From positions 868,001-932,000 of the forward strand of contig JABSSW010000005.1 in NCBI GenBank assembly GCA_018902385.1: 64,000 nt of DNA, given 5' to 3'. The first letter of the stretch is position 1, and each line of letters begins with the position of its first letter. This DNA is from Physcia stellaris. Taxonomy: Eukaryota; Ascomycota; Lecanoromycetes; Caliciales; Physciaceae. The translations under genes were made by a program, and so were the position numbers. The notes beneath the pieces are model-generated. The model was not told the origin of the DNA, did not search any database, and was given only the letters and a program-made list of their open reading frames with translations. Below are positions 1 through 28,630 of this stretch, in pieces.

Positions 1-3000
1 TTGAATGAACAAACATGAAATGATTTTCAATATGATCAACGACGAATGTTATTTCACGTCGAATCATTGTGATCACGTTGAAATTTCTTTTTTGTTATCA
101 CGTTCGTTTATATTTCAGAAATTATTTAATTCGAACAAGCACTCGAATAGAACGTTTTATTTGTCATTTTCGAAGCGATTTTTAACGTTTTTTCCGTCGA
201 CAAGCGTTCAGAAATATCAGATATTGCAAAGACGATCAGTTTCGACATTTTTTCGAATAATTTCTTCTCATTTTACTGTGGAAGACTCGAAGAAAAACGA
301 ACAATCAGTAAAGAAATTCTTGAATTCAGATTTCAAATATGTCATTGAAGAAATAGACAAAAAATATTCATCGAATAGATCGTTCAAAGAAAAACGAAAA
401 ACGAAAATCATACGTGAAGTTCAAAAATCGAGTTTAATTAACGTTTCGATAAGAAAATTTGACATTTTCAAGAAATTTGCACGTCGATTTAGTCGACGAT
501 TTAAAATCACGATTTCGAAAATTCAAAATGACGAACAAGATTTCGACTTTGATATATCATTGAACGTGACGTTTATCGACGCGACGACTTTTCAATCTTT
601 AACAAAGTTTAAGAGAAAAATAAAGAAAATCAAAATCTTTTCATTGATTATGAAGAAATTAGACGAAATTATTGACAACGTCAAAAAGAAATTGATCAAA
701 ATAAAGACTGATTTTGATTTGAATTTCAAGAAAGTTCTTAAGATTATGAAAACAGTCGTCGAGAAATTGAAACGTAAAATTTTTGAATTTCTTAAACGTT
801 TCGAAAGTGTATTCAATTCGAAAAAGACAAACAAGTTATTTTTTCATAAATTTTACGATCACAAAATCGAATTGATCGAAAATTCGAATCAATTGTTTCG
901 AAGTCGAGTTTATTTTCTATCGTCCAAAAAATTCGAAACTTTTCAAAAATATTTACACGATAATTTTCAAAAAAAAATTTATCAATTCAAGCAAAACGTT
1001 TTATGTTTCGTTTATTTTATTCGTCGTCAAGTCGAATGAACAGTTTCGTTTGTGCGTGAATTATCGAAAGCTGAACGTCATAATCAAACGTAATAGTTAT
1101 TTTATTTCGTTGATCGAAAAAATTTTGTTAAAATTATCGATTGTAAATTTTGTTCAAGTTGAATATTATATCGATTTTCAATAAATTTCGAATGAATTCA
1201 CAAAACGAAAATTTTATTATTTTTATATGTTCGTTAAACATTTACAAATATCATGTATTGTTTTTCGATTTTATCAAATGATTCGATCAATTGACAACAT
1301 TACATGAACGATTTGTTGTTTAAATATATTAATCATTTTTGTCAAATGTATTTGAATGATATTTTTATTTACAACAAAATTCGAAAACAACATGAACGAC
1401 ATTTCATTCAAATATTTCAAAAATTGAAAAAAATTGATTTCAAATCGATATCAAAAAATGCGAATTTTTTCAAACGAAAATTTCATTTTTAAAAATCATA
1501 TTATCGACAAAAATTTACGCATGAATTTCAAAAAAATGCAAAACATCGTCAATTGAATTCGTTCAATTTGCATTAAAAAAATGCAAACGTTTGTGAATTT
1601 TTGCAATTTTTATCGACGTTTCATCAAAACGTTTTCGAAATTCGTCAAGTTTTAATTCGAATAATCAAAAAAAAAAATTGATTTCGAATGAATCGATTTC
1701 GTTAACGAAACATTCGAAACTTTAAAAAACAAATAATCGAAATTTCAATTTTTCGACATTACGATCGCAATCGTAAAATTATTTTGAAAATCGATTTTTC
1801 AAATTGATGTTTAAATGAAGTTTTATCTCAATACGACGACGACGAAATTTTTCATTCGATAATTTTTTTCAGCAAAAAGATGATTTTTGTCGAATGCAAT
1901 TACGAAATATATGACAAAAAATTTTTGATCATTATTCGATGTCTGAAGCATTGAAGATTCGAATTCGAAAATATTGACGAATCAATCGAAATTTACATCG
2001 ATCACAAGAATCTGAAAATTTTTATGACAAACAAAAAATTCACTTTTCGTCAGATACGTTAAGTCGAGATTTTAGCGAATTACAACATCAAAATTCAGTA
2101 TCAATTCGGAATCAAAAACGTCAAAGCGAATGTTTTGACTAAAATGTCTGAATTTCGTTTCGTCGAAGACGACGAACGTGAACTTTATAGAAAACAAATT
2201 TTGTTGTCATTTTCTCGATTGCAATTATGTTCGATTGACGTTCAAAACGATTTATACGAACGCGAATAATGCAAATCAATCGAAAAAACGAAAATTGTAT
2301 TAATTATCGTCAAATTTTGATCGATGAACAAATCATCAACGAAAAATAAATTTGCAAAATTGTTCGATCGAAACGAAATTTTTTTAAAAACGAAAATTTA
2401 TGAATATCAAATCGTTTAAATTTGATGATTGAAATAATTCGCGACGTTCACGATCAGTTTTTTTTGTGCACATTCGAACATGAATCGTATTGAAAAATTC
2501 ATTAAACGTTATTATTATTGATTTAATATGCGAAATTTTATCAAACGTTATATTCGTAATTGTCACAAATGTCAACGATTTCGAAATTTTCACGATGATC
2601 GTCATGAATTATTAATTTCATTGTCGATTTTTAATCAACGATGAATTGATATATCGATAAATTTTATAATCGAATTATTTGATTTCAAAAAAATAATGTT
2701 ATTTGTATTATTATCGATCGTTTAATCAAAAACGTCATTACGTTTTTTGCGTGATCGAAAATGACGATGATTTAACAATTCAAATTTGTGTCAAAATATT
2801 GTTTCATTACGTATTTCGTACTCATGATTTATTTTTTTTATTATTTCAAATCGAAATGATCAGTTTGTAAATCGCGTTTGAAAGATTTTTTGTAAACGAT
2901 TAAAAATCAAATGTAAATTGTTCACGTTTTTCAATTTGAAATCGATAATCAAATCGAACGAATTAATCAAAATATCGAAATTCGTTTACGTTTATATTGC

Positions 3001-3960
3001 AATTATCGTCAAACGATTGAATTGATTGAATAAATATCATGAAATTCGTTGACAACAACGATGTTTCAACAATCATCAAATTTCATTTCATTTTTCATCA
3101 ATAAAAATTATCATTTTCGAATGATTTTGAATCAAATTAAATGATTACGAAATCACTAGAAAACGTTTATTGATTTAACAAAACGAATTCATTGTCGAAA
3201 AAATGAATCGTATTATCGAATACGTCAAAATCAATGTTGTCGACGCAAACAAAAAATAACGATTCGAATCAATAAATTTCGTTTTTCAATAAATTTTGAA
3301 ATAGAAAATTACGTTTGATTGAATCGTTGTCACATAAAAACAATTCGCTCGTCAAATAAACTGAACGACAAAAAACTGAATTCATACAAGATGATCAAGA
3401 GAAAAAGTTTCGTTTATGAATTGAAACTGCTCGACGATATGCACATTCATTCAGTTTTTCATTTCTGACTGTTAAAAAAGAATTTTAGAAATTCGTTGAA
3501 AAAACAACATAACGATTTTTCAAAATTAATTATCGCAGACGAAATGTCTGAATGAAAACTCGATGATGTATTATAATTTCGATATCATTATTATCGTTTT
3601 CAGTATCGTTGCAAATGATCGAGCTGAAATTTTCATGATCGAATCTGATATTATGTCGACGATGACGAATTTGAAAATGCTCAAAACATCGTGAATGTCT
3701 TTCACGAAACTAATTCAAAAACAACGAAATCTGTTTTGCGAAATGATTAAATCGTGAATTATATTGTTTATGATCGATCAGAAAATTGTCATCGAATTCG
3801 TTACAATTCATTTTCAAATTGATTTCAATAATTTTTTTTTTGTCATTCGTTTCGTTATCATTTCGCGTTGTTTACAATCAAAATTTACGTCGCATGAAAA
3901 ACTGAATCGTGTCAAAAACATTTTCAGAAATTGTCGTCAAATTTTATTGAACAATGAATA
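1..3960 (+). mobile_element. Fossil Ty3/Gypsy retrotransposon (chromovirus type), pol region
   Basis: Relics of a Gypsy polyprotein read on the + strand in the usual order. The end of the linker and start of reverse transcriptase lie near 780-1020 (DHKIEL stretch), and the palm region with its aspartate box near 1350. RNase H relics lie near 1800-2250, the integrase zinc-binding part near 2490-2600 (RNCHKCQRF), and the integrase core to about 3160. A chromodomain-like tail near 3590-3720 (DDDEFENAQ, FHETNSK) points to the chromovirus branch. The copy is broken throughout, with dozens of breaks, and looks old. No LTR of its own was recognised, and the left end is cut by the window edge. The part from 3780 to 3960 recurs near 12,770-12,980, so two copies of the family are present. 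Confidence 0.8.
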
Positions 3961-4049
3961 ATAATGTCAGATGTCATGCAATGAGATGAATAAACAGAAA
4001 ATTGTCAAAAAAGTTCGAACATTTACGAATTTCTCAACAAGATTCTCAA

Positions 4050-4560
4050 TTGCTTACTAATGACACGCGAAATTATCTGTAAGATTCGTTCAAAATACTT
4101 GTTTTCAAGAAAATTTAAAACATGCACATTTCGTTAAATGCAATGTACGAATCAAACGTCGTATATGCGATAACATCAACGCGTTAATCGTGATGATAAA
4201 GATTTTATCGATTTGTTCAAACTGCTCGTCTCGTGATATCAATTTGATGTTGCAAAGATTTTCAAAATTGCTGACGCGCTAAATCAAATTCACAATTTCT
4301 TACTTATTAATGTTCGTCGAAACTATTTTTTACGAAACGTATGAATTGATTATTTTTCAAAACATGCATTACATTCACGTTCTATCGCATGCAATGTACA
4401 CACGAACTCTCGCATACGCGAAAATATCAAAACGTTAAACATTATTACGATGATTTTATTAACATGATCAGATTGTTTATTTCAAAATCGTAAATCGATT
4501 TGATGTTTTCACGATTTTGACGAATCGATTTCGCGAACGAAATCGATTTCACAACGTTTC
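4050..4560. repeat. Degenerate two-copy tandem duplication, period about 242 bp
   Basis: The word AAAACATGC at 4117 recurs at 4359. The sequence after each copy stays recognisably similar (ATGCAATGTAC, then a GATGATTTTAT-like stretch, then TTTGATGTT). Both copies are heavily mutated. No coding sense was found between 3961 and 4950; apart from this duplication the stretch is plain AT-rich DNA. Confidence 0.45.
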
Positions 4561-4950
4561 GAATTTATTTTTTTCATTTCATCAATCATTCAACTCAACG
4601 TCATTTCAATAGCGCATTTAAATCGCGCAAAACGTTCATCATTAAAAAAAAAAAATTCAATTAATCGTTTCGAAACGAAATTAAAAAAAAAACGAAAAAT
4701 AATGTGACGAACGTGCATCGAATTCAACATTTGACAAAATTAACATCGAATTAATATCGTTATTTTATCACATCGAATGTTAAAGTCGAAATTCGATTTG
4801 ACGCATTCAAGAAATCAAATTTTCTACATATGTTTTTGCAAATTTCATGTATTTGTTTTTATTTCGATATTTTCGTGTAATTATTATAGTAGTAATATCA
4901 TTTCACATCTTTTTGCATAGCATTTCACACGAAAAAGATAAATTAATAAA

Positions 4951-6990
4951 AACAACAAAAAAAAAAAACGAACAAAACAAACAAACAAACAACATGTTTT
5001 AACTTTTTCAAAATAATGATTTTTTCGAGAAAAAATCAATATTTTTTCAAATTAAAATAAAAAAAAAACGAAACGTCAATAACGTTTTTTCATGAATATT
5101 TCATTGTTTTCAATTCTTGAAACATTTGACACGATTCAATCGATAAATCGATAAATGACAAAACGTTTTTGACAATGTTTGCAAACAGAAAACGAACGAA
5201 AAATTCTTGAAAATCGAAAAAAAAACGAAATAAATGAAATCGAATGAAAAATCGAAAATTGACGCGAAAAATTTTCGCGAACATATGTTGATTCAAATGT
5301 TTCGAATTTGATCGATTTGAAAACAAATAAAATTATCACATGAAAATATGACGTAATGCGATTTTGTATGAAATTACATTTGTTTTTGAAATTGTTGTCA
5401 CGATTGCATTTGTCAAAACTTTTCGAAAAAAACGAACGCATTTGATATCGTTGCAAATCAAATGAATTCGATTTTTCAACGAACATGCGATAAAAATCAT
5501 TCACGATCAAATAAAATTTCGATAATATAAACGTTCGAAACGAAATAAACGAACAAATAATGTTTGCATTTTTCAAAAATTTGCACATCAATTTGAATGT
5601 CGCAATCGAAAAACGAAAAAATTTCGACGCAACAAATCGTGAAATTATTTCTGTTCAAGATTTCGATTTGCTTGATGTTGCAATCAACGAAATATCTGAA
5701 AAAATATCGAAAAAAGTAAAAATAATTGATGATTCGATTATTAATTTCGATGACGTAAAAAATGACGATGAAAATAACGAAAAAACAAACGAAATAAAAA
5801 ATGAAATCGCATGTTCAACAAATTGTTAAACAAATTTCGATTTCGATTTCTTGACATGACGAGTACGAATATGTTCGTGTAATTTGATGTTGTTGTCAAA
5901 TTTGATCGTTTTGCAACGTTTGCACGTATATTTTTCTGCTCGTTTCTTGATTAAGCGAATTTTTTCTTGTTGTTTCATCAATTTTTTCGTTTTTTGTTTG
6001 ATTTTGTTTTTCATTTGCAATTCGTGCTTACGCAAATGATATGTTTTTTGTGTTTTTTTGATTTGCACGTATCAATTGCATTTTAAAGTCTTAACGTTTT
6101 CATTCAAATGCATGTTGTAAAACGTTTTGAAATTTTACGTCATGAAATGACTTTCAAAAACGTGATCGCAAAAAACAAACGAAAAAAATAAAAAATCAAA
6201 TTCGAAAATGAAAAATGCGAAATTCGCAAAAATTGTGAATTTCGCAAAAATAAAATTAAAAAAAAATGCATTTTTTGAATGTTTGCATACGATTTTTGAT
6301 GCACGAATCGAAAAAAACGCAAATTTTGATAACGAAAAAGTAAATTCGACTATTCGTAACGATGACGCAAAAAATAAAAAAAAAAACGCAATTTTCGAAT
6401 TTTTGCGTACAATTTCTGATACAAGATTCGAAAAAACTGATAATTTTGATGAAAATGACATAATCGTCAAATCGAATGTAAATGTTGAAATCGTCAATTT
6501 GACTGAATGATAAATAAACGAATTCGCGAAAAATTCGTAAAATGATTCGATAAATAAATGTTATTGTTGATGTAATTGAAAATGTATTGAATAATATTGA
6601 ATGTTATCAATGCAATTAAATCGATTTCTGATTTGACAAAATTGAATATTTTCAATAAAATTGATTATTGTTGAAATATTACAAATTGATTGTTGTATTG
6701 TTCGACGATTAAATATTATTGCGTTTCGTTTTTTGACATGTTGTAATTGATATTAAATGTAACGAAAAGTGTTAATTCGATTCTCATAATTTATTGAAAA
6801 AATCATGAATAATTATCATTTTATTATTTTGAATTTCGTTGTTTTAAATAAGTTACATGCAAATGAAAACACAAAAAATATGCGAATGTCAAGACATTAA
6901 TTTCAACAAAAACGCATTAATTTTTTTTTCGTCAAATTATATCAATTGAATTTTGATTGTAACACATTTGCGAAAATTGTATTTTCAACA
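4951..6990 (-). mobile_element. Fossil LTR-bounded C2H2-finger element, copy 1 (left-truncated)
   Basis: This copy is collinear with 19,600-21,443 and ends in an LTR-like repeat at 6770-6990. On the minus strand near 5830-6070 there is a basic stretch followed by a C2H2-type finger (CKRC, then HEHIRTRH). A downstream relic runs to about 5090. No reverse transcriptase, RNase H or integrase was seen inside, so it looks like a non-autonomous LTR element, or one whose only gene is gag-like. Its left LTR and about 1.2 kb of interior, present in copies 2 and 3, are missing. The copy is broken at many points. Confidence 0.6.
6770..6990 (-). repeat. LTR-like terminal repeat (TG...CA), copy 1
   Basis: A 221 bp segment running from TGTTAATTCG to ATTTTCAACA. 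It is nearly collinear with 21,224-21,443 and with 18,251-18,449, and inversely with 8358-8542 and 11,407-11,591. The TG/CA ends and the paired arrangement around copies 2 and 3 support LTR status. Confidence 0.7.
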
Positions 6991-8357
6991 ACAACAATGA
7001 TTTGTTTTCAAAAACGTATTCGAAATACAAAATTTTTTGAATTTGTGTAATTTCTATAAACGTTTCATTAAGAATTTCAATAAATTGACGTTATTTTTAA
7101 CATTTTTGCTAAAAAAATTCGCAAAATTTCATAAAAAAAATATCAAACGCAAACGTATTTCGAATCGAAATCGAAATCGAAATAAAAAACGATCGTCAAA
7201 CAATTTTTTAATTTTTGAAACATACGAAATTTTCAAACATTTGAAAAAAACGTTTTTGAAAACGTTTATTTTACAACATTTCGATTCGACAAAATTTATA
7301 CGTGTAAAAATTGATGTTTCGAACAAAATCATAAATGATATTTTCGATCAATCGAACGATAAAAATCATTGACATTTTGTAATTTATTTTTCGAAAAAGT
7401 TGATTTCGATCGAGTGCAATTACGAAATTCACGATAAAAAATTTTTGATTATAATATTCGCATTCAAACAATGACGTCATTATTTCGAAAAAATCAAAAA
7501 TCGAATTTTCGTTTTAACAAATTATCGAAATTTCAATCGCTTTATGTTGACAACAAAATTTATTTTTCGACAAATACGATGAATTCAAAAATTGTTTCGA
7601 TACAATTTCGTCATCGATTATCGTTCAAACAACAAAAATTTTGCAAACGATTTGTTCAAACGATTTAATCATATGACGATCATTGAAAAAAAAATTGAAC
7701 AAAATCGTCAAATTTTGACGCAATTGCAAAATTTTTTGCAAACAAATACGATTCAAATTTGCGTCGATGCGATGCGAACAACAATGCAAAAATCAAATCA
7801 TAAAAAAATTATAATTTAAATAGAAAATTCTTATCAACGAAATGATAATTTAATAAAAAATTTCGTTTTTTTTCGAAATTTTCGTTGCATCAAATGTGAT
7901 CATCGATAAATGAAAAATTTTTATGTTAAATAATGTATTCGTTTTGCAATCAATAAATGAAACGATTGCGCGAAAACATATTTAAAAACATGATACAATA
8001 TATGTTATCGACGAAATCATCGACAAAATTGTTGAACGAATTTGTTCATTATTGATAAAAAATTTATGTACGATACAAATTAAACAGAAATTAATCATTT
8101 TTGATTCGTCGCATTCGTTTTGAAAAAACGAAAACGAAATATTTTGACATAATGATTGTTTGTATATGTCGTCAAATTTTAAAAAAAACGTTATACATGC
8201 GAATCATGATGATTTTTTGATCGAACATTTCGAAATAAAACGCACGTTCGAATTAATACGTCGAAAATATTATTGATCAAATTAAAAACGAAATGATCAA
8301 CAAAATATTAAACACGATTTCAACATGCGAACACAAATCAAAAAATATTGCGAAACG

Positions 8358-8542
8358 TATTGAAAAATACAGTTTTCGCAAAAAAATGATCAAGAATTCA
8401 ATTAATATAATCTGACGAAAAAAAAACTAATGCGTTTTTATTGATTTTAATGTTTTGACATCGCACACATCAAAATTTTCGATTTGTTTGTATTTAAAAA
8501 TTACACGCAATTTATGCAATCATTGTTCATGTTTGTTTAACA
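8358..8542 (+). repeat. LTR-like repeat, left end of nested element copy 2
   Basis: 185 bp, same length and orientation as 11,407-11,591 and inverted relative to 21,224-21,443. It is preceded directly by AAACG. Confidence 0.7.
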
Positions 8543-8720
8543 AATTATGAATTCGAATTCAACGTATGTTGTGTTCGTGACAATGATGTTGCAATTGTTT
8601 GACAAACAATTCGATTTGACAAATCGTGAATGTGTGTTTTTAAAAATTTGAATTTTTTCGTACAACGAATTCGCATTCATTATCGTATCGTTCGATCACG
8701 ATACGAATCATGAAAATCAA

Positions 8721-8880
8721 CGATTGTGAAAAAAATTCATCGTTCGATCGCGTTAAAACAATAAAAAAAATTTACATCGATTCGATCATCAATTTTGTGA
8801 ATGAACAAACGATTGTGAAAAAAACTCATCGATCGATCGCGTTAAAACAATAAAAAAAATTTACACGATTTTGCGTTGAA
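8721..8880. repeat. Two-copy direct repeat, period 89 bp
   Basis: The block starting CGATTGTGAAAAAAA at 8721 recurs at 8810. Each copy contains a GATCGCGTTAAAACAATA-like stretch. It is a local tandem duplication inside the nested element. Confidence 0.6.
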
Positions 8881-10198
8881 AACAAAAAGATTGAAAAATG
8901 TCAATTCAACAATTTTACATTTATTCGACAATCGATCACGTTCAGTCAAATACGAAACGATTATTTGTGTGATTATCAATCAATCGTCATTTAATCATGT
9001 ACGACGATTATTTCAATGACATGTCAATCGTTATTGATCGAAATATTTGATCGATCGTCACGTGACATTTCAATTCATTTTTCGATTTTCGTTTTTTATT
9101 TTGTTCGATTGCACGTCAATGAAAAAACTAAAATAAAAACATAACAAGAAATAAAAACGATGAATTTCAACGTCAATCAATTAAATGCGAAACAGTTGTT
9201 TTATTAACATTTACGACTCAAAAGTCGAAATTTGTTAATGCAAAAAATGTCGATTGTTTGATTCATTTCATCATTTATTTTCAGATTTTCAATCAAAATT
9301 TTATTTGATCGTGAATAATTTACATCGCATATTTGTTGAAAATTTGAATTCATTTGATTTGCAATCACGTCAAATCAAATCGTTGTTTTCGCATATTTTC
9401 GACACATGCAATTTCAATTACGTTTTCAATTTTGAAATTTCATACAAATTCGCATTACGTCATGTTTCAATGCGACGATTTTATTTGTTTTCGAAACGAT
9501 CGAATTCGAAATCTGCAAATTTACACATGTTCGCGAAAACTTTTCGCGTCAATTCACGATTTTGATTCATTTTTCTATTCACGTTTTTCGATTTTCGAAA
9601 ATTTTTCATTCAATTTCAATTTGCAAACGTTGTCAAAAACGTTTCGTCATTTATTTATTTAGCAGATGATTTACATCGATCGTTTCAAAAATCGAAAACA
9701 GTAAAATATTTATGAAAATTTTTGCTTTGAGAAAGTTTTGATCTGAAAAAATCACAAAAATTATTTGTTTTCGAATTCAGAAATTCTAAATCGTGTTAAT
9801 TTGTTTTGTTTGTATTTTTTTCGCTCGTTTTATCATTCATTTAGAAAAAACATCATGATTTGAAAAAGTTTAACATGTTGTTGTTTTATTGTTTTGTTCG
9901 TTTTTTCGATTTTGCTATCGTTTATATCTGAAAGAAATTAAAAGTTTGTTTTGTTGATTTGTAAAAACATGATTGTTTTTCTTTGTTGTTGTTTCGTCTT
10001 GATTTAACACGATAATTCATTTATTTTTTATATTACATTTTGCGATTTCGTTATCGAACGATAAATACGAAAAAGAAAAAAACAGAAAATACGATCAAAC
10101 GTGACAATACAACTTCGAAAAAACGTATTGTACAGTCAGAAAAAAAACAAAATGCGTGACAATAAAGTTTCGAGAAAACGTATTGTACAATTACAACA

Positions 10199-10310
10199 TG
10201 AATTTGTCACAACGACGTATTTTTAATGAATTTGTTACAACGATGTATCTTTAATGAATTTGTTACAACGATGTATTTCTAGTGAATTTGCTACAATGAT
10301 GTACAATTTC
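10199..10310. repeat. 28 bp tandem repeat, four copies
   Basis: Units start with TGAATTTG at 10,199, 10,227, 10,255 and 10,283. Each continues with an ACAACGATGTAT-like core. The array lies in the interior of the nested LTR element. Confidence 0.8.
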
Positions 10311-11406
10311 GTGAAATATACAATCAATAATACGAGTTGAAATCAAATAATATCGTTTCGAAAAACGTATTATGCAATCACGAATACGTTTAGAAATCAA
10401 ATCAACAAAAACTTGATGTCAAATAATATCGTTTCGAAAAAACGTATTATGCAATTATTACATTTCGATTTCGCAAAGCAAAAATTCGATCAAAAAAAAC
10501 GAATAATTGCAAAAAATATTCGTTTTTTCGTCATACAAATCAATTTGATTTTTCGACAAAATTTTCTAAATTATATAAAAAGTCAATTCGTTCGAATTTG
10601 CAATCTTTACATCAATGTATGTTCGCGAAAACGATTCGCACGTTCGATGTTTTGCATATTTTTGTTTGATTATCGATTTCTCGATCGTTTTTCATTTTCT
10701 CATTTCGTTGACACATTTTGTGAATTTTTTACAATCAAATCACATAGATATTGCGTCAACGAAATCGCGATGTAAAATAAAAAATCTGAAACATTTGTAA
10801 AATCAATGAATCACAGCACGAATCGTCAATATGTTGCGATAACATTTTCGTTTCAACGACAATATTCAAACGAAAAATATTTGTTTCATGATGTATCGTT
10901 TATTCAATTCTAAATATCAATATCAACATCGATGTTTCATTTCATGAAAATGCATATTTAGAACGTTGCAATTTTTCAGATGTTCGATTGCGTGTTTTAC
11001 AAATCGACTTTACGTCATATTTGAAATCAATAAATTATCGAATTTCGATTCGTTCGAATTTGCAATTTTTACATCGATGTGTGATTTGATTCAGAATTTA
11101 TTACGTTAAAAAAACTTGTTCGAAAATTTCAAACAATGCATCGTTGAAAAAATTTCAAAAGTTATTTCGTTGAAAAAATTTGCAATAATGATAATCACTC
11201 GTTTCAATAAATCGAAAATTTATCGCGTTGAAAAAGTTTGTTCGAAAATTTCAAACAACGTATCGTTGAAAAAGTTTGCACGAAAATTTCAAAATACACA
11301 TCGTTGAAAAAATTTCAAAATTCGTCGTTGAAAAAGTTTGCACGAAAATTTCAAACATTATGATATTTGTTCTAAACAGAAAACACAAACGAATGTTGTG
11401 AAAAAA

Positions 11407-11591
11407 TGTTAAAAAATACAATTTTCGCAAAAAAATGATCAAGAATTCAATTGATATAATTTGACGAAAAAAAAATTAATGCGTTTTCATTAAGTTTAAT
11501 GTTTTGACATCGCACACATCAAAATTTTCGATCTGTTTGTATTTAGAAATTACACGCAATTTATGCAATTATTGTTCATGTTTGTTTAACA
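11407..11591 (+). repeat. LTR-like repeat, right end of nested element copy 2
   Basis: 185 bp partner of 8358-8542. It is followed directly by AAACG, the same five bases that precede the left repeat. Confidence 0.7.
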
Positions 11592-12999
11592 AAACGTGTA
11601 TTATTTGCAAACGAAACAAAACATCTCGTTATAAATCATATAAAAAGTTATTTTTTTTTTATATTCGAATTCAAATGAATTGATTTTACAATGAATTTCG
11701 TTACAAATTTGTTCGAAAATAAAACATGAAACGAAATTGTATATGATTCAATATTTGTGATAATAAATAAATTGACAAAAATGACACATTACATTTTTGT
11801 CACGAAAACAATAAATGCGAAAAATCTTGTCGAAATATTGATACGTGAAATTATAAAATTTCATGAATTTTTTTCATCGATAACAACAAATCGAAATTCG
11901 ATTTTCACGTTCAAATATAATGATATATTATGTCATGCATTTCGAATAAAATTGCGAATGTCAACAACATATCATTTTCAAACGAATGAACAAACAAAAC
12001 GACAAAATAATACAATGAAACAATATTTTCGAACGTTCGTCAATTTCGAACAAAACAATTGAATTGAATTGTTTTCGTTGACGAAATTTGCGTATAACAA
12101 TATTAAACATGTTTTAACGCAAATGTTTTCGTTCGAAATTATACAAAATTTTATTTCAAGAATGTCGTTCGAAAATTTTGCAAATTTCAAAATTAAATTC
12201 AAATTTGTTAATAAACATGTCAAAAAGTTGACGAAATTGATAAACGTGTTCAAAACGAATATAATTTATGTTCAGAAACAACAAATCAAATATAAAAACG
12301 TTAAAACAAAAATTCAAAAATTCAAAATCGACAATTATGTCAATATTAACGACAAAAATATTCGCATCAAACGAAATAAAAAATTCGAATGAAAATTTTT
12401 CGAATCATTCAAAATATTCAAAAAAATAAAAAATCAAATTTATCGCATAAATATATTCAAACGTTGACGAATTCATAACGTTTTTCATGTGTCATTTCTG
12501 AAAAAAATTAAAATTAAAAAAAAAAAAATTCGTTAAAATTCACATATCAATCTGATGACATTGACATTGAAAAAAACGAAACAACAAATGAAATATATGA
12601 CGTCGAAACAATAAAAAATAACAAAATTTTCAAAAAAAATCAAATTTCGAAAAAATCATACAACGAATCAAATTTTTACTATTTTATTCGTTGAAAAAAC
12701 TATGAAAAACGCATTTGAAAATCAATATCGATAATCAAACATTTGAAAAATATGTTACGAAACTTTTATACGAAAAATTCGAAAAAAAACGATGTCAACA
12801 AATTGACAAACAAACAACGTGTTCGACGTCAAATAAATGCAATTTTTTTGTTGAAACAATTGATTAAAAAACAAAATCATTAATTCGATATTGTTTATTG
12901 TCAAAAATTTACGACGCATGAAAAGTTGAATCGTGTCAAAATTATTTTCAAAAATTATTGTTTGATTCAATTGAACGTTAAATATTGTAAACGTGAAAA

Positions 13000-13800
13000 A
13001 AATTTCGAAATTTGATATATGCAATGCGATCGCGTTTAACGATTTCGATATACGAAACAAAAAAATAAAAAATAAAAAAATATAAATGAATTCAAATTCA
13101 AATTTCATTGTTATTCAATTAATTGTCAATCATCATATCGAAAATCGTGAATGATACGAAATTAAATTTTCGATATTGAAAACAACAAACAATTGAATTA
13201 TCAAATTATGTTTTTTTTGAATCATTCACGAAAATGATTTTCAGATTTTTAACGCAAATTGATTAAAAATCGAAAAAAATGACAAAATATTCGATACGAA
13301 AATCACGATCACAATGATTTTTCAAATCATAAAATTTCTGAATGCGAAAATCGCAATCACAACGATTTTTCAAATTTAATGAATACAATATATGCGCACA
13401 AATTTAATCATTTAACAATTAATTCAACAAATGATTTGATCGAATATTGTTATTTCAAAAAATTTCGATTTTTAGAAAAAAACGCGTGTAAAAAATTCAA
13501 AATTCAAAATTTGCAAAAAATGCAAATCGCATTTCGATTGTCAAAAATTCAAATTAAATCATGCAAATTCGAAACATCGAATCGTTTATATCACGAAACG
13601 ATCAATTTCATCATATCAACAACACAAATCGCATAATGATTAACGCATTAATATTCATGCGCAAAAATTCAAAAAATCGTACAATTGAATAAATCGAACG
13701 TTGATATAATGAAAAATCTAAAAAATAATTAATTTTGCAATTATTAATTTAATCATATTATTGTTTTTGTTATATATTTTTGATGTTCAAATGTTTTACA
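13000..13800. other. AT-rich stretch without recognisable gene
   Basis: It contains a short direct repeat: a block starting CGAAAATC at 13,297 recurs at 13,345 (period 48), each copy followed by a CAATGATTTTTCAAAT-like tail. Nothing else was recognised. It probably belongs to the flanking retroelement relics. Confidence 0.4.
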
Positions 13801-16800
13801 AATGAATAATTCGTTTTTACGATTTTTCAAAATTTTAATTTGTTGATATTCGTGACAATTACGTACGTATCGACGAATTGTTTTACGCATGTTGAATCAA
13901 TAATAATCACGACGTAAAAAATTTTTCATGCGATTAAATTCAAAATGATTCGATACGAAAAATTCATAAATTTTTTTGAAAAAATCAACGAACAAAAAAA
14001 CATCGACGAACATTCATAATCGATTTTTGTAATATAAAATATCGTTTTTTTGACAATCACGTAAATTGATTTCATTCACGAAAATAAAATTTTGATTGAA
14101 TGTTTCACAATATGTTCGACAATTGTCGTTTGTTTTGTTTGCGACGAAAATTCGTTCGTAAATTGATTCGTCAAATTCGACGACATAAATTTCGAATCGT
14201 TTTGAAATCAACAACATTTGTTTTTTATATTGATGTCGTTTATCGTTATCGTTTTTAAATCGTGAATTCGACATACGAATCAAAACGTTTGTTTTAACGT
14301 TTTGAATTTCTGATTGAAATTGAATGACGATATTGAATTTCGATAAAATTTCTGTTCAACGAATTTGACGAAAAATTAACTTTTTCGAAATTATGAAAAT
14401 TTTTAGATTTTTGTGATCGATGAAAATCTTGATCGATTCGTTAATGTTTTCGAATTTTGAACGTCAATGTTTTAAACAACGAATGATGATCAATAGTTTT
14501 TTGTTATAAATTTCGTAATTGCATTCGATTAAAATCATGTTTCGATTGTAAAAAATAACGAAATGTAAAATTTTTTCGTCATCGTATTGCGATAACATTT
14601 TTGCATTAACGTAATTTGAAAAATCGATTTTTAAAATAATTTGTTTGATTTTATCGTAATGACGAAATATGAAAATTTCGATTATCGTTTTTTTGAATAA
14701 ATTGAAAATTCTTTCGATTTTCGTAATTCATTCGAAATTTACGAATTTCTTGATTATACGAATGAAAATTTTGATTTTTTTCGAAAAATCGCGAATAAAA
14801 CGTCGATAGAAATTGACAAAATTCACGAAAATTTGAATTTTCTTGAAATTGATAAAACGTGTTCAATCAATTATGATTTGCATTTTTTTTGAATTCATGC
14901 GAAAATTATTTATCGAAAATATAACGTTCAAAAAAAAATTTTTTTTTTTAAAAATTCGCATTTTTCAATATTCATTTGTAAATCGATTTTTTTGAATTTT
15001 TTCAACATTGTTCGAACGTACACAATATGTTTTTTTTTGAATTTGTTGTAAATGAATATGTCATTCAAATAAACTTGACAAAATTCGTTCAGAAAATTGA
15101 ACAAAAAATTATTCATATAATGTTGTCAATTCGTGAAATTTTTGATTAATTCAAAAAATAATATTCGATATTTATACGATTTCATAAAAATGACGAACGT
15201 GATGAATTTTTCATTTTTTTCACTCATTCGAAATTTATTGAAAATTGATATAATATTCAATTTGATCAAATATTTGCAATTTTGAATTTTAATCAAAATT
15301 TTCTCAATCAAAAAAATGAAATTTCGATTGCGTTTCGTAATGTGATTGAATCGACGATAATTCACACACAAACGTAATTGATCGTTAAATTTGATCGCAA
15401 ATAAAACAAATAAAACATATGTCGTTTGATTAAATACGATAAATTTTTTTTTTGCAAATTTTTTTCAAATTTTTTTCAATTTTTTAAATTTGAATTCGAA
15501 TAAAAATACATTCGATTGCGAAACAAAAAATTGTTATCGTTCAACAATTCGATTTTATGATCGTATAATTTATAAAAAAACAATTTGATGATTTTTTGAA
15601 AATCAAATATTTTTGATAAATAACGAAAATATTTTAATATTTTTTTCATTATGCGTTCGAATATCGATTTGATTTGTTCGTGTTTTAAAATTTTTTTGAT
15701 TATGACGACGATTTTTAACGATTCAAAATTCGTTTATAATATTTTGAACGCGAAATCGATTTGATTGATCGTAATAAAAAAACATTAAACGTTTTGTTTT
15801 CGATTTTTGATATCGATCAACAAACAAAAAAAAATTACATCAATCATTGCGATATTCATCGAATCGTCAAAATTCAATTTTGAAAATAACGAAAATTTTG
15901 ATTGTTGTTTTTTCGTCTTTCATCGTTTATTACGTTAATTTTTTAATTTTTTTTTGACGAATGTCGTTTTTATAACAATCGTAATATCAATTTTTGAATT
16001 ATTTGATTCGATTGTTGACGACTCGTCGTCGATATCGATTTTTGAATGAATTGAACATTCGAAACATTTCGAATCGATTATATTTGATTCGTTTTCAACA
16101 ATAAAAAATAAAAATTTGATTTTGAAACGAAACAAAATAATATATCGAAATTTCATCGTCGTTATGTGTTTTGTATCATTTTTTTGCGATAATGTTGTAT
16201 CGTGACGTTAATTAAACACGTTTTATCGACGATTTGATTTGAAAATTTTCAATCGACGAATTTGAATCGTTTGATTGAATATATTGTCGTGATGATTACA
16301 TTTGAATAATTTAAAAATCAATTTATCGTAAATCATGTTCAATATGATTTTATGTTTGTTTATTTATGATTTTTTTAAAATTATCGAATGATTATCAAAA
16401 TCAATGATTAACAAAAAAACGATCAATTCGAAATGTAATTTTATCGTCAATTTGAAATATATCGCGTGAATTATAAAAAAAATATAACGATCGTTGAATT
16501 CAATTAATAATTTCGATTTCAATAAAGATACGAATTTTATGTTCAACATATTGCATACAAATTGCGCGATTTTTTTATCAATGAACGCATAATCAATTGC
16601 ATCAATATTTATTAAAATTTTTAATTTATTTTTATTATCGTTGAATAATAACGTACAAATAATGATTAAAAATCGTTTGATGAAAAAATCAAACATATTA
16701 TTATCGTGAATAAATTTTTTTTTAAACATTCATCAATCGCGTTTTTGACGTGAATCGTCAATTTTTCGAATCAAATTCGTTCGAATCAATATCGAAATTC

Positions 16801-18250
16801 AATTAATGCATTTGTAATTTATGTCATTGACATTTCTGAAATTTATTGACATTAAAACAAAATTTTCAAATGTGATCGAATTTTTCACACGTGAAACATT
16901 TGTTCGTGACAATTAATTAATCGATGATCGAATCATGTTTATAATCGTTTTTGAATTTGACAAAAAACGTCGATATAATTGATTTGACAAACGATGTTGC
17001 AATCGAAACAACAAAAATCGATTTGAAATACATAAAATTTAATTTTTGAATTCGAATTCGAATTTTTTTTTTTCGAATGTTGATTAAATCGTTATACATT
17101 TGTTGAATATCATTTTTTTACGCGAACAAAATGAAATAATGACGAAACGAATTGTTCAAAATTTGTTTCAACGACATGATAAATTTGTCAATTAAATTTT
17201 TTATCAATGTGAATTGATCGAAATTGATTTGAATATTCAAACGATGAAAATTCGAATAAAAAAATTGAAAATTTTGAATATCGAACATGATCAAATTTCG
17301 ATATTTTCGACGTACGTTGCGTTGATAATTTGAATTTTCATAAACGTTTTCGAAAAAATTGATTATCATTATTTCATTTTCGAAATAATTCAAATTGTTA
17401 TATCGACGAGATTGAATATGTTTGATTGTTTTTTTTTCAATTCAGTCAATTATTGTCGTGATTATAAATCGAACAATTTCGTATCAATCGTTGTTAATCG
17501 TAAATTTATCGTGAACGTTGATTTTTCACGTCAATCAATCAAAATTTATATCGTTCGTGAATTTATCGAAATTCGAATGTTTGTTCGTACGTTTTTTTTT
17601 TGAAAATTTGACGAAATTTGTAACGATCGAATCGTTATGAACAGATTTTTTTTCGTTATCGTCGATATTGTTTGAATTTTCATTTGAATCGAAATTGAAA
17701 ACGCGTTCGAAACGACGAATTTTTTTCGAATTTATCAAATCGTCGTATTCGACACGTTTGTTAATGAATTGAATTATGATTCGTTTTTTTTTCATTTTTT
17801 GACGTTTTAAATTTCTCGCGTATTTTTTCGAAAATGTTGTCGATTTCGAATAGATTTTGTTTTTGAATTTTGTAAATTTTAACGAATTGATGAAAATTTT
17901 CTAAAACGATTACGTATTTGTTTCGATCGAAACGTAAATCGTTAAACACGTTCAAAAAATCGTTGAAATGATGTTAAATTCAATATTTCAATTGACGAAC
18001 GATTTTTATGTTCAAAAAAAACGTGATATCGTCGTTTTGATTCGACACAACGTTTGACGTAAAAAAAAATTGACGAAACTTGTAACGAATCGTAAATTTT
18101 TCGTCGATTTTTTGAAATTTCGTCAACATTTGTTCAACGTTTTGTTGCATTGCGTCGATATTCAAATTCTGACGCAAAAAATTGAATTGAATTGTATTAT
18201 AATGATTTCGAATCATTTCGAAAAATAAAAATAAAAATAAAAAATCGTCG

Positions 18251-18449
18251 TTATTGAAAGAATCATGAATGATTATCATTTTATTGCTTTGAATTTCGTT
18301 GTTCTAATAAGTTACATGCAAATGAAAACACAAAAAATGTGCGAATATTAAAGCATTAATTTCAACAAAAACGCATTAATTTTTCATTCGTCAAATTATA
18401 TCAATTGAATTCTGACTGCAACACATCTGCGAAAACTGTATTTTCAACA
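18251..18449 (-). repeat. LTR-like repeat, left end of element copy 3 (shortened)
   Basis: Matches 21,224-21,443 except that the outer part is missing. It ends in TTTTCAACA like the other copies. Confidence 0.65.
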
Positions 18450-21223
18450 CTTTTTCACAACAATCGTTTGTGTCATCTGCTTTGTATTTTAACGAGTTCA
18501 ATTTGAAATTTTCGTGCAAACTTTTTCAACGATATGATTCTTTTAGCGATGCGTATTTTAGAATTCTTTCAACGACGTATTGTTTGAAATTTTCGAACAA
18601 ACTTTCTCGACGTGATGAAATCATGCATCGATGTGAAAATTGCAAAAACGAACGAATCGAAATTCGATAAACTATTGATTTCAAATATGACGTAAAGATC
18701 GAATTGTAAAACGTGCGATCGAACATCTGAAAAATTGCGATCGTGTTCTGAATCTTCATGAAATGAAACATCGATGCGAGAATTGATATTTAAAATTGAA
18801 TAAAAAATACATCAAAAAGCAAATATTCTATGTCTGAATTCTGCGATGACGAACGAAAATGCGAATCACATCATGTAACATCATTGTGTCTCAGAATTTT
18901 CAGATATTTCTTGCGACATCAATGAATCGATATCTATGCAATTTGATTGTAAAAAATTCATAAAATATGTCGACGAAATGCGCAACGCTGAAAACGATCA
19001 AAAAATCGATACGAAAAACATGCATCGATGCAAAAAATGCAAATTCGAATTTTTCTGATTTGACTAAGATTTGTCAAAGAATCAAATCGATTAATATGCG
19101 AAAAAATCAAATATTTTCAACATTATTTGTTTTTCTTGATCGAGTTTCTGCTTTGCAAAATCGAATATGTAATGATTGCATAATACGTTTCTTCGAAACG
19201 ATATTATGTGATTTCATCGAATTTCGAGTGTGTAATCGTTCTTTTTTAACAATTGTGCGTACAGTATGTCAATACGTTTTTTCGAAACTGTATTGTCAAA
19301 ACTGTACGTTTATTCTGACGACTGTACGCTTTCTCGAGTTGTATTGTCATTTTTTTTTTCTCGTATTTATCGGACGACTAAGTCTCAAGAATAATAAAAA
19401 AAGAAACGACGATTAATCGTGTTAAATCAAGACGAAACAAACAACAAAAATAAATTTCTACACATTAATGAAACAAAACAAACAAACAAAACATACAACA
19501 ACTTTTGAATTTTTCCAAATCGAAATAGAACGAAAAAGACGAAACATCGAATTCATTAAAACAACAACTTTTATGTTTCTTCAGATCGATCAACGATTAA
19601 TAAAAAAGACGAACGAACAAAACAACAAACAAACAACATGTTAATTTCTTCAAAGTAATGATTTTCTCGAGCAAAAATCAATACTCTTTCAAAATAAAAC
19701 GAAAAAAAACGAAATTTCAATAACGTTGCTTCATGAATATTTCATTGTTCTCAACTTTTGAAACAATTCGCATGATTCAATCAATAAATCAATAATTGAC
19801 GAAACGTTTTTGACAATGTTTGCAAACAAAAAATGAACGCGAAAATGTCGAAAAAAAAATGCGCATCGAAGAAAAAAATCGAAAAATTCGCGAAAATGAT
19901 ATGCGAATCGACTGTTTGATCGATACGTACATTGTTGAAAATGTTTCGAATTTGATCGTTTTGAAAGCAAATGAAATCGTCGCATTGAAATATGACGTAA
20001 TGCGCGTTTGTATGAAATCGAATTTGCAATTGTTTTTAAAATTGCATTTGTCAAGATCGCGCGAAGAAAACGAGCGCGTTTGATGTCGTTGCAAATCAAA
20101 TGAATTCGATTTCTCAACGAACATGCGAAACAGATCGTTCACAATAAAATAAAATCTCGATGATATAAACGTTCGAAACGAAATAGACGAACAAACATTG
20201 TTTGCATTCTTCAACGATTTGTACATCGATTTGAATGTCGCAATTGAAAAACGAGAAAACTTCGATGCAATGACGAATCGTGAGACAATTTTTGTTCAGA
20301 ATATCGATTTTCGTGATGTTGCAATCGACGAGAAATCGGAAAAAATATTCGAAAAAATAGCGAATGACTCGATTACTAGTTTCGATGACGCGAAAGATGA
20401 CGAAAAAAATGACGAAAAAAATGACGAAACAGAAAAAATAAATGATTTCGATTCGAAAACAGATGAAACAACAAATTGTTGAACAAATTTCGACTTTTTC
20501 GCATGTCGAATGCGAATATGTTCGTGTAACTTGATGTTGTTGTCAAATTTGATCGTTTTGCAACGTCTGCACGTATATTTTTCAATTCGTTTCTTGATCA
20601 AACGAACTTTTTTCTGTTGTTTCAACAACTTTTTCGTTTTTTGTTTGATTTTGCTTTTCATTTGCAATTCGTGTTTTCGCATCAGATAATTTTCTTGTGT
20701 TTTTTTTGCTTGAATGAATCAATTGCATCGCGAAACATTAATAAAACTTGAATTCGTGTGCTCGTGATATAGAATTCGAAAATTTTGCGTTTTCGAATCA
20801 TTTGCGTCGAAACAAATGCAAAAAAAAATAATCAAAAAAAAATAACGAAAACGAATTCGAAAATGAACGATGCGAAATTCGCAAAAATTGAAATACGAAT
20901 CGTCATTCTGACTGAATGATAAATGAGCGAATTTACGAAATAAATTCGATATCGTAAAATAAATAAATGACGAATTCGTGAAAAACTCGTAAAAAATAAA
21001 TAAATAGATGTTATCGACGTAATTGAAAATACTGAATGTACTGATCGTGTGTATCAAAGTATTGAGTATTGCGATATGCAATTGAATCGTTCTGATTTGA
21101 TTTGATTGAATATTCTCAACGAAATTGATTATTGTTGAAATATTGCAAATCGATTGTTGTATTGCTCGACGACTAGATATTACGTGCTCATGCTATAATT
21201 GATTCTGATGATATAGCGAAAGC

Positions 21224-21443
21224 TGTTAATTCGATTTTCATAATTTATTGAAAGAATCATGAATGATTATCATTCTATTGTTCTGAATTTCGTTGTTTTA
21301 ATAAATTACATGCAAATGAAAGCACAAGAAATGTGCGAATGTCAAAACATTAATTTCAACAAAAACGCACTAATTTTTCATTCGTCAAATTATATCAACT
21401 GAATTCTGATTGCAACACATTTGCGAAGATTGTATTTTCAACA
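21224..21443 (-). repeat. LTR-like repeat, right end of element copy 3
   Basis: 220 bp from TGTTAATTCG to TATTTTCAACA. It is the clearest copy of this terminal repeat in the window. Confidence 0.7.
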
Positions 21444-22106
21444 GTCGTCGTTTTTTGTCGTTTTTTATCGTCAAAAATTTCGTCGTTTGCGTGTAAATTC
21501 GATTTGTAATTACACGATTTTCGTCGTTTGTTTCGTCAAAAAAATTTCGTCGTTTGTTTTTACGAAAAGTTTGATCGATTTGAAATTTTATTTTTGAACG
21601 TTCGCGTATCACGACGAGCGATAAAAATTGAAAATTTATTGTAATATCATAAATCGTGTTTGTATGACTGTATTGATTAATTAATTAAACGAAAACAATA
21701 ATTTTGCAAAAATAAATAAATACAAAATGTTGAAATTGCAAACAATGTGCGACGTTAAATTTCAAATCACGTTAATTTCGACGTAAAATTAAAACATAAT
21801 TCGTTGTTCGATTATATTATATCAATTATCTATTTATCAAATCTATATGTCAAACATGTTCGTAACAAATCAATGAATTCGTTTATTGATCAATATTTGT
21901 TTATTAACGAACAAACAACGTTGATTGATCAATATTCGTCATTGATCAATCAACGACACAAATTTTTTGAATAAAATTTATCTTTTCATTGTTACAATAC
22001 ATCGAATCGAAATCGTAACGAATACGCAATTAATTAACAACATGCATCATCAACAACTATTTCTCTAAATAATGATGCATTTTTTTCGCTCATTTTTTTA
22101 TTTTTA

Positions 22107-22959
22107 TTAACAAGACAAGCGTTTGCAAATTGCAATAACGTTTTATTTTAAAATTAAAATTATCAAATATCGTGATTTTCGTCATTTAACATTAACGTTT
22201 TGTTATCATCATCATTGTTTTGTTGTACGAAACATCACATTATTGACAATTCACGATTATACGTTGAAACGTTGATGATTTTGCGATCGAACATACACAT
22301 GTTTACGTTCAAATCGCAAAAATCGAACGTTTGTTCAAACAATTGACAGTTGATTTTTGATTAAATTTTTTTATTGCAATTGCAATTGCAACATTGTTGC
22401 AATTTCTATTGCAATTTCTATTGCAATTGCAATATATATACAAAAATTTTTCTAACGTGCATTTCACATTAACGTTGTTGTTGAACGTTATTAACGTTGT
22501 TGTTGAACGTTGATCGTCAATTAATTCGATTATCGCATATCGTTAATACATCAATGCGTGCATGATTTCGAATCGTTGTATTAAATTCTAACAAGTTTTC
22601 ATGTCATTTTCATATTAATTTGTATTGTAAAGTATTTTCACAGTTGTTCAACAACGACATCAACAGTAAAAATGAATGATGTGCAATAATTTCATGTTTT
22701 GACATGAATTCATGTCAGAACATGAAATAACTGTAATTGTCAATGAGAAACATACGCAATATTGAGCAATATTTTCAATTCAGTTGTTCAATTTGTATGA
22801 TAAATTGTATGATAATCAGACAGATGATTTGAAGATTTTTTCAAAATTTTCGTCTTGTTTCAGAATTCTTAGCCTGAATACGAAATAGATTGTTTCGAAA
22901 TCAGGTTTATCCGAAAGCCGTGCACCTCACGCTAGGAAACAATTCTTGTACTGGGTTAA
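22107..22959 (-). repeat. TTAA-bounded 0.85 kb non-coding repeat, copy A
   Basis: The segment starts TTAACAAGACAAGCG and ends CTGGGTTAA. Its reverse complement is collinear over its whole length with 27,772-28,630 (copy B2), and at both ends with 26,556-27,775 (copy B1). Shared landmarks are the CAGTACAAGAAT-like end, an ATTGCA-rich tract (22,374-22,440 here), and the GCAAATTGCAA-like block near the other end. TTAA at both boundaries suggests a piggyBac-like target site and hence a non-autonomous DNA element. I saw no convincing terminal inverted repeats and no reading frame. The copy is moderately mutated and lies 47 bp upstream of the permease start codon. Confidence 0.7.
22691..22726. repeat. 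36 bp near-perfect palindrome centred on GAATTC
   Basis: Two 18-base arms match at 17 positions around GAATTC at 22,706-22,711. The one mismatch is a C/T difference in a CpT context. The palindrome lies inside repeat copy A and is not obvious in copy B2. Confidence 0.8.
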
Positions 22960-23006
22960 CTACTCGTACCGTGAGAAAGAATTAAACAGTATTGTCACAC
23001 TGCAAC

Positions 23007-26794: not shown

Positions 26795-27341
26795 GTTGAA
26801 TTGCAAGCCTCGTAATTGATTTCGTAACACGCTGTCCCGTTGAATTGCAAGCCTCGTAGTATATACGCTGTTTCGTTGAATTGCAAGCCTCGTAACACGC
26901 TGTTCCGTTGAATTGCAAGCCTCGTAGTATATACGCTGTTCCGTTGAATTGCAAGCCTCGTAACACGCTGTCCCGTTGAATTGCAAGTCTCGTAGTACGC
27001 TGTCCCGTTGAATTGCAAGCTTCGTAGTATATACGCTGTTCCGTTGAATTGCAAACCTCGTAATATATACGCTGTCTCGTTGAAATGCAAGTCTCGTAGT
27101 ATATACGCTGTCCCGTTGAATTGCAAGCCTCGTAGTATATACGTTGTTTCGTTGAATTGCAAGTCTCGTAACACGCTGTCTCGTTGAATTGCAAGCCTCG
27201 TAGTATATACGCTGTTCCGTTGAATTGCAAGTCTCGTAGTACGCTGTCTCGTTGAATTGCAAGCCTCGTAATATATACGCTGTCCCGTTGAATTGCAAGT
27301 CTCGTAATACATACGATGTCCCGTTGAATTGCAAGTCTCAT
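26795..27341 (-). repeat. Minisatellite, about 16 units of 32 or 36 bp
   Basis: The core GTTGAATTGCAAGCCTCGTA is repeated about 16 times. Two alternating spacers separate the units: a short one (ACACGCTGTCC-like) and a longer one (GTATATACGCTGTCC-like). All three minus-strand frames stay open through the array for 205-235 codons because no unit carries a stop in any frame. Each frame would give a repetitive peptide (for example CNSTGQRIYYEA). I treat this as a property of the repeat, not as evidence for a gene. Confidence 0.9.
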
Positions 27342-27430
27342 AGTGAAAACAACGATATGCGACATGCGACATGCGACGAGCTAAAAACGACGCTAAAAGA
27401 GAAAGCGCTAAAAAGAATTCTTGTAAAAAA

Positions 27431-27516
27431 TATACAATATATTGTATATCATGACATGCCATGTCATGTCATGTCATGACATGATATATCATATCATATC
27501 ATACTATGATATGAAA
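27431..27516. repeat. CATGT/CATAT microsatellite with palindromic character
   Basis: Runs of ATGTC and ATATC pentamers follow an AT-rich palindrome (ATACAATATATTGTAT). It lies inside repeat copy B1, between the minisatellite and the conserved right end. Confidence 0.85.
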
Positions 27517-27771
27517 AGTGTTGATTTCATCAAGAGTCAATTGAGTCGTATTGCAACGAAACGCTCGATTTTTGCGATTTGAACGTAATTATGTGTATAT
27601 TCGAACGCAAAAGCATCAACGTCTCAACGTATAATCGTGTTGTCAATGTTTTTCAAGCGATGCACAATAGAACGATTGTTGACAAATCGTGAGATGATGA
27701 CGAAAACTGTGATAATTGATAATTCTAATTTTATCATAAAACGCTGTTGCAATTTGCAGACGTTTATCTTG

Positions 27772-28630
27772 TTAATTCAGTACAAAAATTATTTTCTAGC
27801 GTGAAATGCACGACTTTCGAATAAATCTGATTTCGAAACAGTCTATTTCGTATTTCGCTTAAGAATTCCTGAGATAAAACGAAAATTCAGAAAGATTTTC
27901 GAGTTAATTGTCAAATTATCATACAATTTATCATACAAAGTGAACAATTCAATCGCAAATATTGCTCAATATTGTGTATGTTTTTCATTGACAATTACAG
28001 CTATTTCACGTTTTGTCACATTGAGCACAGTTTGAACAAGATTATTGCAAACGCATCATTCATTTTTATTATTGATGTCGTTGTTGAGCAACTGTGAAAG
28101 TATTCTGCAATACAAATTAATATGAAAAGTGACATGAAAATTGTCAAAAATCAATGCAAATCGTAAAAACTCGTGCGAGTTTAACGCATTGATGTATTAG
28201 CGATATGCGATAATCGTGCTAATTGACGCTCAACGCTCAACAACAACGCTAATGTGAAGTGCACGTTAAAAAGAGTTTTTGTATATATATTTCATTAATG
28301 AAAATGAAACAATATTGCAACATTGTTGCAACATTATTGCAATTGCAATTGCAATTGCAATAGACAAATTGAATCAAGAGTCAATTGTCATTTGCTTGAA
28401 CAAACGCTCGATTTTTGCGATTTGAACGTAATCATGTGTATGTTCGAACGCAACATCATCAACGCTTCAACGTATAATCGTGAATTGTCAATAATGTGGT
28501 GTTTCTGTTGTACGGGTGGTGGTGGTGGTGGTGACAGGGCGATAATGCCAGGTGGCGAAAGCCACGATATTTGATAACCCCAACCCTAAAATAAAGCGCT
28601 GTTGCAATTTGCAGGCGTTTGCCTTGTTGT
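27772..28630 (+). repeat. TTAA-bounded repeat, copy B2 (strongly mutated)
   Basis: Starts TTAATTCAGTACAAAAAT and runs collinear with the reverse complement of copy A to CTTGTT at 28,623-28,628, where the final TTAA is not preserved. An ATTGCA-rich tract sits at 28,336-28,362. Relative to copy A, most differences near the start are C-to-T at CpC or G-to-A at ApG/GpG. No reading frame is supported. Confidence 0.7.

Follow-up and report, generated by a model that had tools for sequence, protein, structure and literature searches.

The AT-rich blocks and their dinucleotide signature

A 64,000-nucleotide stretch of the Physcia stellaris genome (the window; contig JABSSW010000005.1, positions 868,001 to 932,000) carries AT-rich blocks of degraded repeats that have lost nearly every cytosine followed by cytosine and most of those followed by thymine. 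The blocks are the product of a real, repeat-confined hypermutation that resembles repeat-induced point mutation (RIP) and has an unusual CpC/CpT context. Below, CpY and CpR denote cytosine followed by a pyrimidine or a purine, respectively. The features of the window are as follows.

1–22860, no strand: degraded repeats forming an AT-rich block (GC 0.262), with almost no CpC/GpG and heavily reduced CpT/ApG
5–1039, forward: open frame of 344 residues in the mutated block, without a Pfam match of its own; Gly 0, Trp 0, Pro 0.3%
832–2206, forward: repeat copy, 73% identical to an inverted copy at 14209–15587
4954–6235, forward: copy of repeat family A, with a second window copy at 19599–20890
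22109–22960, forward: copy of repeat family B; CpY depletion tapers over its final ~150 bases, where ordinary sequence starts
26829–27344, forward: 36-bp minisatellite adjoining a family B copy, its units varying between C and T at CpY positions
27345–28628, reverse: weaker mutated pocket (mutated at ~27345–28500) containing the second family B copy, 27771–28628
28640–59780, no strand: unaffected sequence, GC 0.49, with 113.7 CpC+GpG and 134.0 CpT+ApG per kb
59900–64000, no strand: second large AT-rich block, with 0.0 CpC+GpG and 30.5 CpT+ApG per kb

An earlier reading of the window, made from its letters alone (the sequence-only reading), drew attention to positions 11761–12060, where C is followed by A 27 times, by G 16 times, by T once and by C never, and where G is preceded by T 15 times, by C 16 times and by A or G never; these counts are exact. 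Its wider claims, that the skew runs through the AT-rich blocks at 1–22 kb and 59.8–64 kb, is absent from the genes and does not make CpA/TpG the depleted pair, also hold, and the signature proves stronger than first stated. Positions 1–22106 contain 3 CC, 4 GG, 244 CT and 231 AG, together with 1339 CA, 1336 TG and 1313 CG. Compared with 200 mononucleotide shuffles of the same segment, CC+GG amounts to 7 where 757 are expected (standard deviation (sd) 22) and CT+AG to 475 where 2133 are expected (sd 37), while CA+TG (2675, shuffle mean 2137) and CG (1313, shuffle mean 378) are in excess. TA is low, at 1314 for a shuffle mean of 3012, which corresponds to an observed/expected ratio (o/e) of 0.44.

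Measured against the genes (29001–59700), the density of CpA+TpG+2CpG is unchanged in the block (239.8 vs 241.9 per kb), CpA+TpG alone being slightly lower (121.0 vs 136.4) and 2xCpG slightly higher (118.8 vs 105.4), whereas CpC+GpG+CpT+ApG collapses from 247.9 to 21.8 per kb. The G+C missing relative to the genes is therefore essentially all CpY, and the commonest contexts of the cytosines that are left are T[C]AA and T[C]GA. The standard RIP indices are negative (TpA/ApT 0.446; (CpA+TpG)/(ApC+GpT) 1.337; difference -0.89), so that the usual tests for RIP would miss this defence.

Dinucleotide densities and repeat comparison place the end of the first block at ~22860, past position 22106, and the block borders coincide with repeat ends, at ~22860–22960 in the family B copy and at ~59900. 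The pocket at 27345–28500, which retains 2.6 CpC+GpG and 58.0 CpT+ApG per kb, was not listed by the sequence-only reading. When eight frames from the mutated block were compared with Pfam, no match exceeded a cut-off, and Rfam and tRNA searches across the window gave no matches. A stretch of 64 bases occurs twice inside the mutated block (8719–8782 and 8808–8870, 95% identity), and this duplication is perhaps younger than its surroundings.

Direction, context and extent of the mutations

The direction of change was read from little-mutated copies of a reverse-transcriptase element, L090 (C5:1166301–1167300) and L091 (C12:60101–61100), which have GC contents of 0.49 and 0.50 and are 96.4% identical over 991 bases. 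The best 40 of 211 candidate relatives of L090 were scored, and seven copies were retrieved, two little mutated and five mutated; the other 38 matches among the best 40 are 73–84% identical to L090. With L090 as reference and the five mutated copies pooled, C has become T at 475 of 534 CpC sites (0.89) and 438 of 710 CpT sites (0.62), compared with 22 of 624 CpA sites (0.035) and 3 of 515 CpG sites (0.006). Each copy carries 146–216 C>T/G>A changes, 4–9 reverse transitions and 3–6 transversions relative to L090 (for L092, 146, 7 and 4), and the picture is unchanged when L091 serves as reference (151–225, 2–7 and 2–10). C:G-to-T:A transitions thus dominate in the repeats, as RIP in the broad sense requires. 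The CpA preference of classic RIP is not found, nor is TpA raised, and the loss of CpG expected from CpG methylation followed by deamination is likewise not seen, CpG density being unreduced.

The same preference for CpY emerges from pairwise BLAST alignments among 56 loci of families A and B and three window pieces, in which copies recur across pairs so that counts are not independent. Left out were the loci within the window (L005, L026, L035 and L042), alignments shorter than 200 bases or below 80% identity, and nine pairs at 100% identity, inferred to be overlapping stretches. At 80–85% identity the frequencies are 0.58 for CpC, 0.59 for CpT, 0.09 for CpA and 0.08 for CpG; at 94–97% identity they are 11/37 (0.30), 115/266 (0.43), 114/2330 (0.05) and 37/1241 (0.03), respectively. 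Multiple alignments of the two families gave the right direction with a CpA/CpG background of 0.18–0.27, probably caused by misaligned, mosaic copies and subfamily divergence, and were replaced by the pairwise alignments and the little-mutated reference. CpA-to-TpA as the main transition, which the sequence-only reading had named as an outcome that would count against it, was observed in none of the three comparisons.

The minisatellite provides a small-scale record of the same rule. At one site its units read CTGTCCCG (5 units), CTGTTCCG (5), CTGTCTCG (3) and CTGTTTCG (1), the variants CCCG, TCCG, CTCG and TTCG differing by C versus T at CpY sites. The C before G is kept at that site in 15 of 15 anchored units, and the other CG of the unit reads CA in one of 15. 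GG is absent from the array.

Beyond the window, we searched an assembly of 43.97 Mb in 147 contigs, representing one P. stellaris genome; the published assembly has 46.57 Mb in 184 scaffolds, an N50 of 594.86 kb and a GC content of 43.32%, and derives from an ascospore culture (PMC7513301). Family A has at least 53 matching stretches in the genome and family B at least 80, each count including the window query. Thirty matches of each family were retrieved for composition, four of the 60 lying inside the window. CpC o/e spans 0.00–0.12 across the family A matches and 0.00–0.64 across those of family B, that is, from heavy to light mutation. Some family B copies have normal flanks (L037, L039 and L043) and others sit in affected DNA. 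A further 25 stretches were taken at round positions; 24 of them are ordinary, with GC of 0.45–0.58, and one, L083, which may or may not be a repeat, is affected. Within what was sampled, single-copy DNA is spared and borders follow repeats; the CpY depletion of unique genes that would have spoken against the sequence-only reading is seen neither in the window genes nor in these 24 stretches. The share of the genome that is AT-rich comes to one in 25 by this sampling, as against about a quarter when inferred from the published GC content and the two GC levels seen. In the accessible text of the P. stellaris genome paper the terms 'repeat-induced' and 'AT-rich' do not occur (PMC7513301).

Candidate methyltransferases and competing explanations

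As the sequence-only reading had proposed, the genome was searched for cytosine methyltransferase genes. A PF00145 profile finds three, on contigs C3, C5 and C6. The product of the C3 gene is a long protein, putatively DIM-2-like; the other two are assigned by sequence to the RID/Masc1 class, and both extend through the last catalytic motif. The C6 gene (L001, C6:790057–794028) has two short introns and is complete between the first and the last of its catalytic motifs, and named relatives of its protein include DmtA proteins, which we presume to be of the RID class. Relatives of the C5 gene (P0003) include proteins that bear the names of Heterodermia, Dirinaria and Usnea. The C5 and C6 proteins share one tree with the DmtA proteins (52 chosen catalytic domains, midpoint root, most rows without organism names), in which the C6 protein falls into a clade of 13 rows including Heterodermia, with a stem of 0.62 and support of 100/100; the C5 protein's clade and the Eurotiomycete DmtA-type proteins lie outside it. 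The named members of this clade are Physcia and Heterodermia only, both Physciaceae; Dirinaria belongs to Caliciaceae, and all three to Caliciales. When the 34 best C6-type sequences are compared with 190 other relatives, they depart from the latter at five columns in which these are at least 90% conserved. At one such column, that of residue 721 of P0003, Lys (in 88% of C6-type sequences) stands in place of Asn, 19 residues downstream of the first residue of PPCQ. Of the two RID-class genes, the C6 paralogue is thereby the more suggestive candidate, by correlation only.

We consider it probable that the AT-rich blocks are transposon repeats wrecked by a repeat-directed, RIP-like hypermutation of CpY, with a RID-class enzyme as its best explanation. 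The data show a C:G-to-T:A hypermutation with almost no transversions, confined to repeats in what was sampled and bordered by repeat ends; it strikes both strands, the base 3' of the cytosine setting the target, CpC first and CpT next with CpA and CpG nearly spared. In the model, the change would be made around the sexual cycle by a candidate RID-class methyltransferase, most plausibly the divergent C6 paralogue and otherwise the C5 protein, whose specificity would have shifted away from CpA and towards CpY in the P. stellaris lineage. The fit to RIP follows from the 3'-base rule, the involvement of both strands, the confinement to repeats and the near-absence of other changes. The C-to-T mutator with CpY specificity offered by the sequence-only reading, alongside some other process acting on repeats, is supported to this extent. 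A further step, that the diverged RID-class duplicate of the Physcia/Heterodermia clade is a dedicated CpY mutator, forming a second RIP system that is opposite to the CpA-directed one, creates stops only from Trp codons and mainly replaces Gly and Pro codons, is put forward tentatively and we would not yet bet on it.

Several observations weigh against this interpretation. L090 and L091 are long, similar duplicates that stay little mutated even though 38 others match among the best 40 of 211 (the five retrieved being mutated), which suggests that the process is incomplete or quiescent, or that these copies arrived recently; alternatively, the two may have entered the last cross from different parents. 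Depletion is slight in three matches of family B, namely L040, L043 and L053, with CpC o/e of 0.56–0.64 and CpT o/e of 0.84–0.91. The C5 protein, for its part, departs from its relatives at only one of the columns that 90% or more of them share.

The strongest competitor, itself improbable, is a slow spontaneous deamination of 5-methylcytosine set at CpY in silenced repeats by the DIM-2-like or another methyltransferase. A gene that we take to be DIM-2-like is present and a methyltransferase would suit the 3'-base rule, yet CpG, the usual site of 5-methylcytosine loss, is intact both in density and in the element copies, and the 146–216 directed changes beside 3–6 transversions per copy speak of bursts and not of a clock.

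Editing of transposon DNA by an APOBEC/AID-type cytidine deaminase appears very unlikely. The restriction of C-to-T changes to transposon-like repeats would fit it, and the fold is present in the genome, with eight matches to PF00383 (cytidine/deoxycytidylate deaminase); an APOBEC_N search found no match, but found none in the controls either and is hence uninformative. Target choice by APOBEC and AID depends on the 5' base, and their changes form strand-coordinated clusters. Here, however, the 5' base has only a modest effect relative to L090 (CpC 0.87–0.91 and CpT 0.52–0.73 depending on it), TCA (3/233), TCG (1/222), ACA (5/114) and GCA (8/133) are spared, and both strands are mutated with no strand-coordinated runs consistent among the five copies. 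L092 alone is raised, with a same-strand concordance of 0.614 vs 0.524 in shuffles (sd 0.039), 2.3 sd above.

A sequencing or assembly artefact, such as nanopore miscalls at methylated C, is hardly credible. The assembly was built from R9.4.1 nanopore reads but received two rounds of Illumina polishing (PMC7513301), and copies 75–85% identical should map uniquely. In addition, 28 of 33 database relatives of the 344-residue frame contain neither Pro nor Gly, the protein mark of lost CC/GG, although their species and sequencing technology were not seen and a query nearly free of these residues favours such matches. Finally, ultraviolet damage in a sun-exposed lichen, suggested by CpC and CpT being dipyrimidines, can be set aside, as ultraviolet light also mutates TpC, which is spared here in TCA and TCG, and genic DNA in the window is unaffected.

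Known systems, coding consequences and meaning

The P. stellaris hypermutation shares with RIP in Neurospora crassa its C:G-to-T:A changes on both strands, its confinement to repeats, the scarcity of other changes and the presence of RID-class and DIM-2-like genes. The order of targets differs, being CpA>CpT>CpG>CpC in N. crassa (PMC5496416) and CpC>CpT>>CpA>CpG in P. stellaris, so that the last becomes first and the first is nearly spared while CpT is second in both; TpA, moreover, is depleted in the P. stellaris block and not enriched. Trichoderma reesei also has a non-Neurospora preference, but one that favours CpA and CpG with CpC least (PMC5496416). Signatures of CpA, CpT and CpG have been described; every genome of CpA or CpT signature has a RID/Masc1 gene, and a link between CpT and a motif in RID has been suggested (PMC4352252). 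CpT is a major target in Magnaporthe oryzae, Botrytis cinerea and Sclerotinia, where this class I Dnmt1 (RID/Masc1) is present as in P. stellaris; in these fungi, however, it accompanies CpA, and the word CpC is absent from the main text of that source, whereas P. stellaris nearly spares CpA and prefers CpC (PMC4352252).

CpT exceeds CpA in the Neurospora Tad1 family and is frequent in some Stagonospora repeats (PMC2621366), is described as a dominant type among fungi capable of RIP (PMC7882544) and occurs together with CpA in Anisogramma (PMC10998396). Cladonia rangiformis, another lichen-forming ascomycete, likewise has sharp borders between genes and mutated transposons and homologues of RID and DIM-2, but its mutated DNA peaks at ~16% GC compared with 26% in the P. 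stellaris block, and the main text of that paper does not mention CpA, CpT or CpC (PMC12542154). As regards CpC, Monilinia shows a CpC-to-TpT double mutation alongside classical CpA RIP (PMC8959702), and the term also occurs in PMC3017866, PMC4522978, PMC2973834 and PMC7493409. In the basidiomycete Rhizoctonia solani AG8, heterozygous changes at CpC are the densest of all CpN, with a repeat spacing of 301 bp vs 490 for CpA, 583 for CpG and 539 for CpT; there, unlike in P. stellaris, genes and repeats are affected alike, CpA, CpG and CpT are not spared, and the paper stresses CpG (PMC4014442). CpT as a target is therefore already known and changes at CpC have already been tabulated; what is unusual is a repeat-confined, CpC-first context that spares CpA and CpG. 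The sequence-only reading knew of no fungus sparing CpA so completely, and in the open-access literature, as far as its text was accessible, we found no case combining CpC as the best target, near-sparing of CpA and CpG, and confinement to repeats. Clutterbuck's survey of contexts from 2011 reportedly covers this ground and could contain a similar case.

The context also determines how a coding sequence decays. Mutation of CpY creates a stop only by turning TGG into TGA, whereas mutation of CpA does so from CAA, CAG and TGG. Relative to L090, 14 of 15 TGG codons read TGA and one is gapped, and no CAA, CAG or CGA codon has become a stop. Among reverse-transcriptase matches, the best 150 of 527 candidates were scored and hold 250 internal TGA, 33 TAA and 3 TAG; internal stops occur in 140 of the 150, two of them with TAA only, and ten have none. 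Both the excess of TGA and the fate of the TGG codons are expected from CpY mutation. Loss of CpC/GpG further means that CCN and GGN codons must disappear. The 33 protein-database relatives of the 344-residue frame (P0239–P0271) are predictions sourced from ENA, a sample from which species spread is not inferable. The five exceptions to the absence of Pro and Gly (P0248, P0249, P0254, P0255 and P0258) have 1–25 such residues each, P0249 being the richest with 24 Pro in 423 residues, while Pro+Gly makes up 9–14% of 29 ordinary control proteins. Precomputed annotation assigns a PF00078 (RVT_1) domain to two of the relatives, P0256 and P0264. Nine keep Trp in the absence of Gly or Pro, with a maximum of 6 in P0264 and P0270, which may reflect a gene caller reading TGA as Trp. 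Viral contigs were also scanned, and no related frame was detected in them. Databases contain long predicted proteins free of Gly and Pro that resemble mutated transposon relics.

To our knowledge, how RID selects cytosines is not understood, and a naturally occurring system with CpC as its preferred target and CpA nearly spared offers a comparison for mapping specificity. It also predicts a different way of killing transposons: with TGG as the sole source of new stops, long open frames nearly devoid of Gly and Pro persist and find their way into protein databases.

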